Of a stretch of DNA of 64,000 nucleotides, positions 58,666-64,000 are shown piece by piece. Position 1 is the first letter of the stretch. Every line of letters starts with the position of its first letter. Below the pieces are notes generated by a model. It was given only the letters and a program-made list of their open reading frames with translations, was not told the origin of the DNA and made no database searches. This DNA is from Clostridiaceae bacterium (GTDB lineage Bacteria > Bacillota > Clostridia > Oscillospirales > QAMX01). The DNA is taken from NCBI GenBank assembly GCA_018384365.1, contig JAHAYX010000054.1, positions 83,316-147,315 of the forward strand, given 5' to 3'. The position numbers and the translations under genes were made by a program.

Positions 58666-60504
58666 TTATTCCACGCGCTCAAAATCTTCGGGGCCGTGTT
58701 TGCACAGCGGGCAAACAAAATCGGCAGGCAGTTCGTCGCCTTCGTAGAAATAACCGCAGATTTTGCAGACCCAGCCACGCTTTTTCTCCTGCATGGGCTG
58801 AGGCTTGGGTTTGATATGATCAAAATAATAGCTGTATGTGACCGACGGCTCGCCGGACAGCACTTTTGCCTCTGTGATTTCCGCTACAAAGAGAGTATGC
58901 GTGCCGTAATCCTCAGTTTTGACGACTTTTGCAGAGAAGAACGCGTTGGTGTGCTCCGGCAGATAGAACAGGCCGTTCTCACTTCTGGCTTCGCTTCCGT
59001 CCAGCTTGTTGACATCGCGTCCGCTCTGGAATCCGAACTGCTGGAACACCTTAAACGGCACGCTTTCCGTCAGAACGGAAACATTAAAGACGCCGGTGCG
59101 CAGGATCATGTCATGGGTATAATTGGCCTTATTCACGGCAATGGAAATGCGTTTCGGGGAATCCGTGATCTGTGTGACCGTGTTGATGATGCAGCCGTTA
59201 TCGCGGCCGTTTTCACGCGCGGAGAGAACGAACAAACCATAGGAAAGCTTGAAGAACGCAGAAGGCTCAACCGTGGTATTGCCGCTGCCTTCCGTGCTTT
59301 CGGGTTTCTGGAACGTTGCAAGGATCGCCTCAACCAGTGCGTCGATTTCTGCGCTCTGCGCTTCCTTCAGGGAAGAACGGACATCCAGTACATTGTCCAG
59401 GACGGTGATGTTTTTCAGCGGCGCAAACAGTTCGCGCATGAGTTTACCGGAAGTAGGCGCCCAGGAACCGTTCTGGATCAAGGCGACCGTGCGATTCTGG
59501 ATGTTATGGGCGACCAGATCGTGCAGGAGAGATTCCATCGTGACAAAAATACCGGCATTATAGGTCGTCGAAGCAAAGACCAGATGACTGTAACGGAATG
59601 CGGCCGCAATGATATCGGACACAGGGGTGACGGAAACGTCGTACATCACGGTTTTTACACCGCGGTCGCGCAGCCGCGAGGACAAAACCTCAGCAGCGTT
59701 TTCGGTATTGCCGTAAACCGAGGCATAGGCGATCATGACGCCGGTTTCTTCCGGCGTGTAGGTGCTCCATTTCACATATTTGTCCAGGAAATCGCCAATA
59801 TTGGCGCGCCAGACGAAGCCGTGCAGCGGGCAAATCATGTTGATTTCAAGCGCGGAGGCTTTTTTCAGCAGCGCCTGCACCTGCGTGCCGTACTTGCCGA
59901 CGATATTGGTGTAATAGCGGCGCGCTTCGTCCAGATAATCCCGCTCGAAATTGACTTCATCGGCAAACATGGCGCCATTCAGTGCGCCGAACGTGCCGAA
60001 TGCATCCGCCGAGAAGAGAATCTTGTCCACGGTGTCATAGGTGACCATGACCTCCGGCCAGTGCACCATCGGCGCCATAACAAAGGTCAGGTTGTGATGA
60101 CCGGTATTCAGAATACTGCCTTCTTTGACAATGTAGGCCTTGTCCGAAAGATCCAGATCAAAGAACTGACGGATCATAGTCTCCGTTTTGGCATTGCAGA
60201 CAACGACGGTATCCGGCCAGCGGCGCAGAACTTCCGCAATGGTGGCGGAATGATCCGGCTCCATATGCTGAACAACCAGATAATCCAGCTTACGTCCGGC
60301 CAGCGCATGCTCCAGATTTTCAAAGAAGACGCGGCTGACGGCCTTGTCCACCGTATCAAAGAGAACGGTTGTATCGTCCAAAAGAAGATAGGAATTATAG
60401 GAAACACCATCCGGGACGGAATAAACGCCCTCGAACATGGCAAGCCTGCGGTCATTGCCGCCGACCCAGACGAGGTCTTTTGTGACTTGTTTGGTGCAAT
60501 ACAT
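58666..60504 (-). CDS. Flavodiiron protein fused to flavin reductase-like and rubredoxin domains
   Basis: MBL-fold diiron motif HMEPDHSA, flavodoxin domain (IAYASVYGNTENAAE), flavin reductase-like domain, C-terminal rubredoxin WVCKICGYFYEGDELPADFVCPLCKHG. Confidence 0.95.
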   Translation of the reverse strand: MYCTKQVTKDLVWVGGNDRRLAMFEGVYSVPDGVSYNSYLLLDDTTVLFDTVDKAVSRVFFENLEHALAGRKLDYLVVQHMEPDHSATIAEVLRRWPDTVVVCNAKTETMIRQFFDLDLSDKAYIVKEGSILNTGHHNLTFVMAPMVHWPEVMVTYDTVDKILFSADAFGTFGALNGAMFADEVNFERDYLDEARRYYTNIVGKYGTQVQALLKKASALEINMICPLHGFVWRANIGDFLDKYVKWSTYTPEETGVMIAYASVYGNTENAAEVLSSRLRDRGVKTVMYDVSVTPVSDIIAAAFRYSHLVFASTTYNAGIFVTMESLLHDLVAHNIQNRTVALIQNGSWAPTSGKLMRELFAPLKNITVLDNVLDVRSSLKEAQSAEIDALVEAILATFQKPESTEGSGNTTVEPSAFFKLSYGLFVLSARENGRDNGCIINTVTQITDSPKRISIAVNKANYTHDMILRTGVFNVSVLTESVPFKVFQQFGFQSGRDVNKLDGSEARSENGLFYLPEHTNAFFSAKVVKTEDYGTHTLFVAEITEAKVLSGEPSVTYSYYFDHIKPKPQPMQEKKRGWVCKICGYFYEGDELPADFVCPLCKHGPEDFERVE

Positions 60505-60549: not shown

Positions 60550-60590
60550 ATTATACTAAAAAGCTATAATATAATGGTTGCAATCGCAAC
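60550..60590 (-). promoter_or_regulatory. Candidate Crp/Fnr-type operator and divergent promoter of the flavodiiron gene
   Basis: GTTGC-aatc-GCAAC (60577-60590); minus-strand TATAAT at 60555-60550 puts the palindrome centre near -40.5. Confidence 0.6.
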
Positions 60591-60637
60591 AGAACTGTGA
60601 TAAAATACAGAAAAACTTATCTTGGGAGCCGCACGCG

Positions 60638-61306
60638 ATGTATCAGGATCTTATCAGCAAGTGTATTTTGTTTTCCGATCTTTCCCGGGAAGATCTTGCC
60701 TATGCACTGCACTTTTTTTCCGCCACGGAAAAAATCTATGAAAAGGGAGATTTCCTCAACCGGGTGACAGCCCCTTTGGAGTATTTCGGGCTGGTGCTGT
60801 CCGGTACCATTCAGGTTTATATGGATGATATCGACGGGAATCACATGATTATGGCAAACGTTGGGGAAGGGGATACGTTTGGCGAATCGCTGTGCTTTCT
60901 TCACCGTGATGCCCCCGTTTATATTTGCAGCGTGACGGATTCCGTGGTGCTTTGGATGAATACGGACCGGATCAAGCATCCGGACGCGTCATTCGATTAC
61001 CGCGACATCCTGCTGGCAAACCGCTTCACGGCAATGCTGGCCAGCCGCACGCTTGCCATGAACGACCGGATTCAGATCCTGTCCAAAATATCCATCCGGG
61101 ATAAGCTGATCACCTTTTTTTCGCAGTACAGCAATCAATATGGAAAGCAGGAATTCACGATCCCCTTTGACCGCAGTGACATGGCAACCTATCTTGGCGT
61201 GAACCGCAGTGCCCTATCGCGAGAGCTTGGGAAGATGCGGGACGAGGGAATTATCGATTTTCACAAAAATACCTTCCTGATCAAGAATATTTTTCCCATC
61301 AAATGA
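60638..61306 (+). CDS. Crp/Fnr family transcriptional regulator
   Basis: N-terminal cNMP-binding fold (GLVLSGTIQVYMDDIDGNHMIMANVGEGDTFGES), C-terminal HTH (SDMATYLGVNRSALSRELGKMRDEGII). Confidence 0.95.
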   Translation: MYQDLISKCILFSDLSREDLAYALHFFSATEKIYEKGDFLNRVTAPLEYFGLVLSGTIQVYMDDIDGNHMIMANVGEGDTFGESLCFLHRDAPVYICSVTDSVVLWMNTDRIKHPDASFDYRDILLANRFTAMLASRTLAMNDRIQILSKISIRDKLITFFSQYSNQYGKQEFTIPFDRSDMATYLGVNRSALSRELGKMRDEGIIDFHKNTFLIKNIFPIK

Positions 61307-61316
61307 CGTCTTTATC

Positions 61317-61359
61317 CGTTGCTTATGCAACGCAATGTCCCGGCGGTATGCTGTATAAT
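61317..61359 (+). promoter_or_regulatory. Candidate Crp/Fnr-type operator and promoter of the ABC importer operon
   Basis: CGTTGC-ttat-GCAACG (61317-61332); TATAAT at 61354-61359 puts the palindrome centre at -41.5. Confidence 0.65.
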
Positions 61360-61385: not shown

Positions 61386-62366
61386 ATGAACATGAAAAAA
61401 GCAATTTCACTGATATTGGCGCTGGCGCTCATCGTTATGGCATTTGCCGGATGTGCTGCCCAGCCGAAGGAAGAGGATGTCACCATCCGCATCGGCGGCC
61501 TGAAGGGCCCGACCTCCATGGGCCTTGTCAAGGTTATGGAAGATAACGAAAATGGCGCCGCTGCCAACGATTATGCGTTTACCATTGCGGGAAGTGCGGA
61601 CGAAGTCACACCGAAGCTCATCCAGGGTGAACTGGATATCGCGGCTGTGCCTGCAAACCTGGCTTCCGTGCTCTATAACAATACCGATGGCGCCGTTCAG
61701 CTGCTGGCTGTTAACACGCTGGGCGTGATTTACATCGTGGAAAAGGGCGAAACGATCCAGTCCGTTGCGGATCTCGCCGGCAAGACCATTTATGCGACCG
61801 GTAAGGGCTCCACGCCGGAGTATGCACTCCGCTATATCCTTGCGGAAAACGGCATTGACCCGGACCAGGACGTTACCATTGAGTGGAAGAGCGAGCCGAC
61901 GGAGGTTGTTTCCACCCTTGCGGCGACTGATGGCGGCGTGGCCATGCTGCCGCAGCCGTTTGTCACGGTGGCACAGGGTACGGTTGAGGGCCTGCGCATC
62001 GCCGTCGACCTGACGCAGGCATGGGATGCTCTGGAGAACGGCAGCATGCTGATCACCGGCGTTCTGCTGGTGCGCCGTGACTTTGCGGAGCAGCATCCGC
62101 AGGCGATTGAAAACTTCCTGAAGGAATATGAAGCCTCGACCAAGTATGTAAACGAGAATAATGCCGACGCAGCGCAGCTGATTGAAAAGTTTGACATCGT
62201 CAAGGCTGCTGTTGCAGAAAAGGCTCTGCCGTATTGCAACATTACGTACATCGCCGGCGCTGATATGAAGGCCCCGATGGATGGCTATCTCAAGGTGCTG
62301 TTTGATCAGAATCCTGCGTCCGTGGGCGGAACGCTGCCGGACAGTGATTTCTACTATGAGGGATAA
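61386..62366 (+). CDS. ABC transporter substrate-binding lipoprotein (SsuA/NrtA/THI5-like fold)
   Basis: Lipobox VMAFAGCAAQ; IRIGGLKGPTSMGLVKVME..., LIQGELDIAAVPANLASVLYN. Confidence 0.9.
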   Translation: MNMKKAISLILALALIVMAFAGCAAQPKEEDVTIRIGGLKGPTSMGLVKVMEDNENGAAANDYAFTIAGSADEVTPKLIQGELDIAAVPANLASVLYNNTDGAVQLLAVNTLGVIYIVEKGETIQSVADLAGKTIYATGKGSTPEYALRYILAENGIDPDQDVTIEWKSEPTEVVSTLAATDGGVAMLPQPFVTVAQGTVEGLRIAVDLTQAWDALENGSMLITGVLLVRRDFAEQHPQAIENFLKEYEASTKYVNENNADAAQLIEKFDIVKAAVAEKALPYCNITYIAGADMKAPMDGYLKVLFDQNPASVGGTLPDSDFYYEG

Positions 62367-63108
62367 GAAAAAACTGCAAAAATTCGCCGCTGTTTTGCTG
62401 ACGCTTGCCATCTGGCAGGCGGCAGCAATGGCGTTGGATCAAAAGTTATTGCTGGCCTCGCCTCTCTCCGTACTGGCGAGGCTTGCGAGCATTTGGCAGG
62501 AACCTGCTTTTTTCTCCTCCGTCTGGTTCAGCTTTATCCGGATTGTCGGTGGTTTTGGTCTGGCGCTTGTGCTGGGCGTGCTGCTGGCAATCCTGGCCGG
62601 AAAATTCCCCGTGCTCGAAACCTTTTTCTGGCCGGTCTTTACGGCGATCAAGTCGGTACCGGTTGCATCGTTTATCATCATCAGCCTGATCTGGCTCACG
62701 TCCTCGGAACTCTCGATCTTTATTTCCTTCCTGATGGTCCTTCCGATTGTTTACACGAACGTGCTGGAGGGAATCCGCAGCACAGACCGGAAAATGACGG
62801 AGATGGCGGATGTGTTCCATATTCCGTGGAACCGGCGATTGATGTATATCTGGCTGCCGCAAATCCGTCCCTATCTGATTTCGGCGTGCAGTATGTCCCT
62901 GGGACTCTCTTGGAAGGCGGGCATTGCTGCGGAGATCATCGGCATCCCGGACGGTTCGATCGGTGAAATGCTTTACAATGCCAAGGCCTATTTGAACACC
63001 GTGGACCTCTTTGCCTGGACGGTGATCATCGTGGCAATCAGTGTTGCATTTGAAAAGCTCTTCCTGGCGCTGCTGCGCTATGGTTTCCGAAAGCTGGTGC
63101 GGGTATGA
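62356..63108 (+). CDS. ABC transporter permease (SsuC/TauC-like)
   Basis: Six-TM MetI-like; EAA-type loop EMADVFHIPWNRRLMYIWLPQIRPYLISACSMSLGLSWKAGIAAEIIG. Confidence 0.93.
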   Translation: MRDKKKLQKFAAVLLTLAIWQAAAMALDQKLLLASPLSVLARLASIWQEPAFFSSVWFSFIRIVGGFGLALVLGVLLAILAGKFPVLETFFWPVFTAIKSVPVASFIIISLIWLTSSELSIFISFLMVLPIVYTNVLEGIRSTDRKMTEMADVFHIPWNRRLMYIWLPQIRPYLISACSMSLGLSWKAGIAAEIIGIPDGSIGEMLYNAKAYLNTVDLFAWTVIIVAISVAFEKLFLALLRYGFRKLVRV

Positions 63109-63689
63109 AAGATGTACTTGTGCAGGGACTTTATAAAAATTTCGGCGAGAAACAGGTGCTTGCGGATTTTTCGGCAGTGTTTCCGGCGGGACGCGTCACC
63201 TGCGTGATGGGACCGTCCGGCTGCGGCAAAACGACGCTTTTGAATATTCTGCTGGGTCTGGAGCGCGCCGATCAGGGGACGATTGAGAATCTACCGCCGC
63301 GTATTTCCGCCGTTTTTCAGGAAGAGCGGCTTTGCGAGGACTTTTCAGCCGTAACAAACGTGCGTCTTGTGACCGGGAAAGTTCTGCGTGACGAGGAAAT
63401 TGTCGAATGTTTGGAGGCGTTTGGCCTTGCAGGCAGTACGCATGTGCCTGTGCGGGAGCTTTCCGGCGGCATGAAGCGGCGTGTAGCAATTGCACGCGCA
63501 GTATTGGCGGAGGGCGAACTCCTGATTCTGGACGAACCATTTAAGGGTCTGGACGAAACGACACGGAAAACTGTCGCCGCTGAGGTGAAACGGCGTATCC
63601 AGGGCCGTACGGTGATTATGGTGACGCATGACGCCGATGAAGCGCTGTTGATGGACGCTGAAGTATTGGAAATGAGGACTTTGGTATGA
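63105..63689 (+). CDS. ABC transporter ATP-binding protein (SsuB/TauB-like)
   Basis: [61 protein letters not shown] overlap. Confidence 0.95.
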   Translation: MKDVLVQGLYKNFGEKQVLADFSAVFPAGRVTCVMGPSGCGKTTLLNILLGLERADQGTIENLPPRISAVFQEERLCEDFSAVTNVRLVTGKVLRDEEIVECLEAFGLAGSTHVPVRELSGGMKRRVAIARAVLAEGELLILDEPFKGLDETTRKTVAAEVKRRIQGRTVIMVTHDADEALLMDAEVLEMRTLV

Positions 63690-64000
63690 AAATTACGACA
63701 AAACAGGAAATTTTAGAGCTGCTTGCCCTGCCGTATGCGGAATTTCAACAGACGGTGATTCCGGCGGCGAAGCAGACGTATATCGAGCGGCGCGGAAATG
63801 AACTTGTCTCAAGCGCCATGCTCGGCTTTTCAAATATCTGCAAAAACCGCTGCCTTTATTGCGGGATGCGCGCCGGAAGTTCCGTGGAGCGTTATCGCAT
63901 TGCAGCGGACGACGTCATTGCAGCCGCACGCACAGCAAAGGAAATGGGCTTCCGTCGGATGTTCGTGATCAGCGGCGAAGACCCCAAGTATGGCTATGAA
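63686..64000 (+). CDS. HydE-like radical SAM protein (N-terminal part, truncated by window end)
   Basis: LGFSNICKNRCLYCGMRAGSSVERYRIAADDVIAAARTAKEMGFRRMFVISGEDPKYGYE: radical SAM CxxxCxxC plus HydE/BioB-like SGEDP motif. Confidence 0.8.
   Translation, partial: MKITTKQEILELLALPYAEFQQTVIPAAKQTYIERRGNELVSSAMLGFSNICKNRCLYCGMRAGSSVERYRIAADDVIAAARTAKEMGFRRMFVISGEDPKYGYE

Follow-up and report, generated by a model that had tools for sequence, protein, structure and literature searches.

The palindrome GTTGC-N4-GCAAC, which stands on both sides of a Crp/Fnr-type regulator gene in the 64-kb stretch of DNA analysed here (the window), is most probably the operator of the regulator encoded between its two copies. 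We give a probability of about 0.88 to the reading that this regulator activates an ABC importer operon and a flavodiiron gene in class II fashion and represses its own gene. The evidence consists of the putative operator sites themselves, their conservation in relatives, a fixed spacing to predicted promoters, the same sites in trans and a correlation between recognition helix and operator; from these we infer binding, activation and autorepression.

The regulator gene (60638..61306, + strand) encodes 222 aa, with the recognition helix NRSALSREL at residues 189-197. Putative operator 1, GTTGCAATCGCAAC (60577..60590), is an exact match to GTTGC-N4-GCAAC between the divergent flavodiiron and regulator genes. 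Putative operator 2, CGTTGCTTATGCAACG (61317..61332, core 61318-61331), lies just after the stop codon of the regulator gene. Both sites were located exactly in the preliminary description of this DNA. The predicted -10 element TATAAT of the importer operon (61354..61359, + strand) starts at a distance of 29.5 bp from the midpoint of operator 2, and that of the flavodiiron gene (TATAAT, 60550..60555, - strand) at 28.5 bp from the midpoint of operator 1, in agreement with the positions of -41.5 and about -40.5 previously calculated from the hexamers starting at 61354 and, on the minus strand, at 60555. The value of -41.5 assumes that the -10 hexamer occupies positions -12 to -7, and all -10 elements are predictions. 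The predicted regulator promoter (60578..60606, + strand) is composed of TTGCAA at 60578-60583, inside operator 1, a 17-bp spacer and TAAAAT at 60601-60606. Operator 1 is centred at about -29.5 of the predicted start of the regulator transcript and overlaps its -35 element, so autorepression is the natural reading. In the proposed mechanism, a regulator dimer on 61318-61331 at -41.5 would activate the importer operon, comprising the genes for a substrate-binding protein (SBP), permease, ATPase and HydE-like radical SAM protein, as a class II activator. On 60577-60590, at about -40.5, the regulator would activate the flavodiiron gene on the opposite strand, and operator 1 bound in this way would cover the regulator's own -35 element and limit regulator synthesis.

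The flavodiiron gene (58666..60504, - strand) encodes a multidomain protein of 612 aa with ODP beta-lactamase, flavodoxin, flavin reductase and rubredoxin-like domains according to Pfam and NCBIfam. The core target in the importer operon is the SBP gene (61386..62366, + strand), encoding an SsuA/NMT1-like lipoprotein. It is followed on the same strand by the permease gene (62356..63108; BPD_transp_1), for which the start at 62356 was deduced from its overlap with the stop codon of the SBP gene, and by the ATPase gene (63105..63689; ABC_tran, E 9.1e-27). The HydE-like radical SAM gene (63686..64000, + strand) is cut by the contig end, and its fragment matches TIGR03956 with E 1.8e-16. The gene is probably split by the assembly break, with a remainder that looks like the C-terminal part at the start of contig C25 (G000:C25:1-609). 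The earlier term 'HydE-like' is right as to the family, but complete homologs reach 159-186 bits against the TIGR03956 cut-off of 254.6 and thus score below the level set for HydE. Reading the importer operon as part of hydrogenase maturation was considered and is weakened by the lack of HydF and HydG above cut-off in the organism's own genome (88.7% complete). Since HydF was not found in the genomes of two genus-mates either, a hydrogenase link is unsupported in this genus. HydF follows at locus L013 and lies near the regulator gene at L171 (G036), so such a link may hold in other genera.

Only two exact copies of GTTGC-N4-GCAAC exist in the window, where 0.13 are expected, and two or more copies appeared in 1 of 100 shuffled windows. 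The 2.11-Mb draft genome holds 5 copies, and also 5 of the reversed control pattern. The remaining three genomic copies all lie within long open frames, and whole-genome counts gave no enrichment over the reversed control in this genome or in family genomes. The motif by itself is at background frequency, so its evaluation must rest on position and on relatives. The preliminary description had named background frequency in the genome as grounds for giving up the operator, and this is literally what was found; we uphold the operator because of the position of the sites, their conservation and the sites in trans. The whole-genome frequency would also suit mere chance, but both window copies are intergenic, promoter-positioned and within 755 bp of each other, although the rate across the genome predicts 0.0005 copies for the two gaps, and they are conserved in relatives, which makes a chance origin of the palindromes negligibly probable. 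In several family members (L148-L152, L154, L165) runs of TTGCAA-like repeats occur near ABC ATPase genes, in some cases directly after a TATACT box, with GTTGC palindromes inside. The extra GTTGC sites of these loci were left out, as several lie in TTGCAA-rich runs and look like operators of another regulator. The sites of L155, L156 and L157 (G013, G015) were also omitted; they belong to a dispersed repeat with GTTGCTTACGCAAC that is apparently unrelated to the operator.

Homologs of the regulator were collected by a contig search (L011-L034) and from 394 genomes of the same order. Perfect palindromes with GTTGC arms adjoin the genes of homologs whose protein identity ranges from 85% to about 30%, placed downstream ahead of the importer operon, upstream, or on both sides. 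The SBP gene adjoins the regulator gene in most close homologs, and a GTTGC site directly 3' of the regulator gene was found at 24 distinct loci, the window counted. Among 25 downstream sites, the distance from the centre to the best -10 hexamer is 29.5 bp in 19 or 20, depending on which of two scorings is used, and 28.5 bp in 3, consistent with the predicted class II position at the importer operon. L011 and L012 have an equivalent of operator 1 in the corresponding position, and upstream-type GTTGC sites also occur in L016, L048, L049, L030, L031 and L032. At 8 of the 14 upstream GTTGC sites, 17.5 bp separate the site centre from the first base of the regulator gene's predicted -10 element, which favours the autorepression previously suggested from a site in the regulator's promoter core. 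On the flavodiiron side, the 28.5-bp spacing of the window recurs in L011 (G002), where the divergent flavodiiron protein is 87% identical to that of the window. Conservation at orthologous promoters, which the preliminary description had called for, was therefore found for the importer and regulator sites, but for the flavodiiron site at this type of locus in two species only. Perfect adjacent sites were absent from 14 of 48 regulators with Arg at CRP-position 185 (Arg185-type), some of which have imperfect sites or sites in trans.

At loci of the hcp/frdX type, a spacing of 29.5 bp recurs between the upstream site and a leftward -10 element in 46 of 58 cases, and the regulator's own predicted -10 element begins 21 bp before the site in 51 of 58, a location that suggests autorepression by roadblock. 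AsrA genes in L030 and L112 adjoin regulators with GTTGC sites. At L023 (2339-8954) a GTTGC site comes after a homologous regulator gene and precedes genes that, by eye, encode a NifH-like protein, two NifD/K-like proteins and a Fec-type importer, which would place a nitrogenase-like cluster behind a putative operator of this type.

The site is also found away from the regulator gene. In seven genomes with a close regulator, no importer operon was found beside it (G012, G036, G057, G115, G127, G290 and G357); their importer SBP genes are on other contigs, and the GTTGC palindrome lies upstream in 7/7, at 29.5 bp from a -10-like hexamer in six of these unlinked operons and at 28.5 bp in one. 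Five SBP homologs come from four genomes that lack such a regulator (G014, G017, G049, G112), and none of the five has a GTTGC site. In the reverse test, genomes were picked by a GTTGC site at the SBP gene, and G092, G142, G144, G262, G283 and G319 all encode an Arg185-type regulator with the helix RSALSREL or RSALCREL. G019 is an exception, with a GTTGC site at its SBP gene and the regulator not found in its draft genome.

Palindrome 2 could instead be the terminator hairpin of the regulator gene, as it lies just past the stop codon and could fold into a stem of 6 bp and a loop of 4 bases, and the palindromes of L018 and L050 are longer and followed by a T-run. There is, however, no T-run after palindrome 2 in the window, the same letters stand upstream of the regulator gene and before unlinked importer operons with equal spacing to the -10 element, and the arm letter varies with the recognition helix of the regulator. 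We consider a terminator highly improbable.

The pattern GTTGC-N4-GCAAC-N21/22-TATAMT was scanned over the 394 genomes and gave 77 matches of site plus promoter in 69 genomes, compared with 7 for the reversed control. The recurrent first genes behind these matches are importer SBP genes and flavodiiron genes (L234, L235, L243, L246 and the window type), so that flavodiiron genes elsewhere do carry such sites; further recurrent targets are Hcp/FrdX (L216, L241) and NrdD (L191). Because these targets recur in other genomes, the pairing of flavodiiron and importer is not peculiar to the window, and the regulon previously proposed to join both gains support as a prediction. As flavodiiron, Hcp, FrdX and NrdD are the recurrent targets of the clade, we guess that the regulator responds to NO or to a related redox or oxygen stress. 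Besides these targets, L189, L190 and L192 (site at 1500) encode proteins of 93-97 aa resembling the NrdD C-terminus, each with its own predicted GTTGC class II promoter beside a Crp/Fnr gene. Membrane proteins of 176-187 aa, ECF S-component-like by eye, lie behind a GTTGC class II promoter in L193, L194, L209, L210, L233, L247 and L248; that of L193 had no NCBIfam match.

The recognition helix and the innermost base of the operator were compared in 128 distinct regulators, counting those with a perfect flanking GTTGX site. Arg at position 185 goes with GTTGC in 34/34, and regulators without it go with T (27), A (25) or G (8), never with C (60/60); all 25 GTTGA sites go with Gly at 182. The diverged specificity relative to FNR that was earlier proposed from the helix NRSALSR is in keeping with these counts. 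Fisher's test for the association of Arg185 with C gives p ~2e-26 only if the rows are independent, which they are not. According to the tree, Arg185 changed only about three times and an independent-pairs test is not significant, so the correlation has little phylogenetic power. G092 and G142 each carry an Arg185-type and a GTTGT-type regulator, and such paralogs with different putative operators, to which the GTTGG-type second regulator of the organism's own genome can be added, lend partial support to the rule. As an internal control, the relative in L033 with Arg180 and Pro181 has GTATCttatGTTAC upstream, which differs from the published HcpR2 motif in a single letter. The regulators at L019 (6648-6800) and L025 (6660-6760) have Gln180 (NQSALSREL) and sites of the form GTTGC-N4-GCAAT, in which the outer base is half-degenerate, as the Arg180/G3 rule predicts.

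A second Crp/Fnr paralog of the same genome, with the helix VERSALSAEL (G000:C4:17521-18147; L007, L169), is divergent from an FrdX-like ferredoxin gene. On the frdX side it has a GTTGG-N4-CCAAC site 22 bases ahead of TATACT, again a 29.5-bp spacing, and its regulon, with another operator, probably runs parallel to that of the window regulator. The existence of this gene could suggest that another transcription factor binds the GTTGC sites and that the neighbouring regulator is a bystander. Against this, the arms of the operator co-vary with the helix of the neighbouring regulator, site and Arg185-type regulator co-occur across genomes also when unlinked, and the other clear Crp/Fnr gene has a GTTGG site of its own. 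A bystander role is very unlikely.

With the neighbouring regulator as the cognate factor, the innermost operator base within the Ser181 HcpR-related clade would follow residues 182 and 185, with C for Arg185, A for Gly182 and T or G otherwise. In its broadest form, the proposal is that a clostridial Crp/Fnr clade reads GTTGX-N4-X'CAAC with X set in this manner, that paralogs run separate regulons, and that the GTTGC branch is an undescribed stress regulon coupling flavodiiron detoxification of O2 or NO to the import of a compound on which a HydE-like radical SAM enzyme acts; we regard the odds of this wider proposal as even. It would add residues 182 and 185 to the published Crp/Fnr recognition rule, which covers residues 180 and 181. 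For a regulator family common in Clostridia, the operator, the promoter geometry and the targets are now predicted, and an importer with unassigned substrate, together with a HydE-like radical SAM protein, becomes tied to a flavodiiron/Hcp-type stress response, which is a concrete lead to function.

Membership of the regulator in the Crp/Fnr superfamily is clear from PF00027 cNMP_binding (43.4 bits, E 3.4e-11) and PF13545 HTH_Crp_2 (42.2 bits, E 7.9e-11), both above cut-off, while no curated equivalog was found among the NCBIfam profiles. Its AlphaFold model (pLDDT 91) resembles the FNR, CRP and HcpR folds. The regulator has only three cysteines (Cys 9, 86 and 97) and is therefore not FNR: it lacks the N-terminal [4Fe-4S] cysteine cluster, and its putative operator is GTTGC-N4-GCAAC instead of TTGAT-N4-ATCAA. 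CRP was rejected with 25.6 bits for NF008732 against a cut-off of 266 and an operator other than TGTGA-N6-TCACA; sensing of cAMP or by an Fe-S cluster is unsupported by the regulator sequence. The HcpR2 type of Rodionov, GTAACnnnnGTTAC with Pro181, does not fit a regulator with Ser at 181 and a GTTGC site. The preliminary description compared the regulator with FNR; the divergence from FNR stands, and the closest group is amended to clostridial HcpR. We file the regulator as a member of an HcpR-related Ser181/Arg185 clade and not as HcpR itself.

It might nevertheless be an ordinary HcpR of the hybrid-cluster-protein response, with the importer incidental. Distant members of the clade have hcp, frdX and flavodiiron genes as neighbours, with sites at hcp promoters in L028, L031, L216 and L241 and equal class II geometry at the hcp/frdX loci, and HcpR is NO-responsive in the literature (PMC12750200, PMC12915319). 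But hcp is not adjacent to the window regulator in its gene neighbourhood, a separate GTTGG paralog adjoins frdX in the same genome, and regulators of the window's subclade are most often partnered with the importer operon, in trans as well. An ordinary HcpR is improbable, though less so than a bystander role. The tree separates the importer-linked regulators, as a supported group (98), from the hcp/frdX-linked ones, but its deep forks are weak (66).

The accessible text of Rodionov et al. 2005 (PMC1274295) gives the HcpR2 consensus as GTAACnnnnGTTAC for Pro181 proteins and notes a Ser181 HcpR2 subgroup (C. thermocellum, C. difficile) with a deviating motif. A search of the accessible literature for the operator string GTTGCNNNNGCAAC returned no paper; the Ser181 motif of PMC1274295 sits in a figure and may already be of the GTTG type. 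A search for HcpR with GTTGC gave nothing relevant, and a 2004 match with GTTGC concerns Desulfovibrio Zur.

Among known systems, HcpR and HcpR2 of Clostridia and Bacteroidetes are like the window regulator in sequence, gene neighbourhood and a 14-bp palindromic site. HcpR2 combines Pro181 with GTAACnnnnGTTAC, whereas the window regulator combines Ser181 with GTTGC-N4-GCAAC and a putative importer/flavodiiron regulon. The HcpR of Porphyromonas gingivalis (PDB 9day), an NO-sensing member of the superfamily found by both sequence and fold, is about 20% identical to the window regulator and has the helix NRQSLARSL. Its heme ligand Met68 immediately precedes the aligned segment, close to a part of the window regulator that is not conserved, and has no clearly conserved equivalent there. 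E. coli CRP shares the fold, the equivalents of Arg180 and Arg185, the outer G of the half-site and the class II position of -41.5, but has Glu181 and a TGTGA half-site where the window regulator has Ser and GTTGC and no sign of cAMP. E. coli FNR shares the fold, the 14-bp palindrome and activation from -41.5, which is predicted here, and the regulator model has its best structural match in FNR of A. fischeri; the helix of E. coli FNR reads TVETISR, whereas the window regulator has NRSALSR and no N-terminal cysteine cluster.
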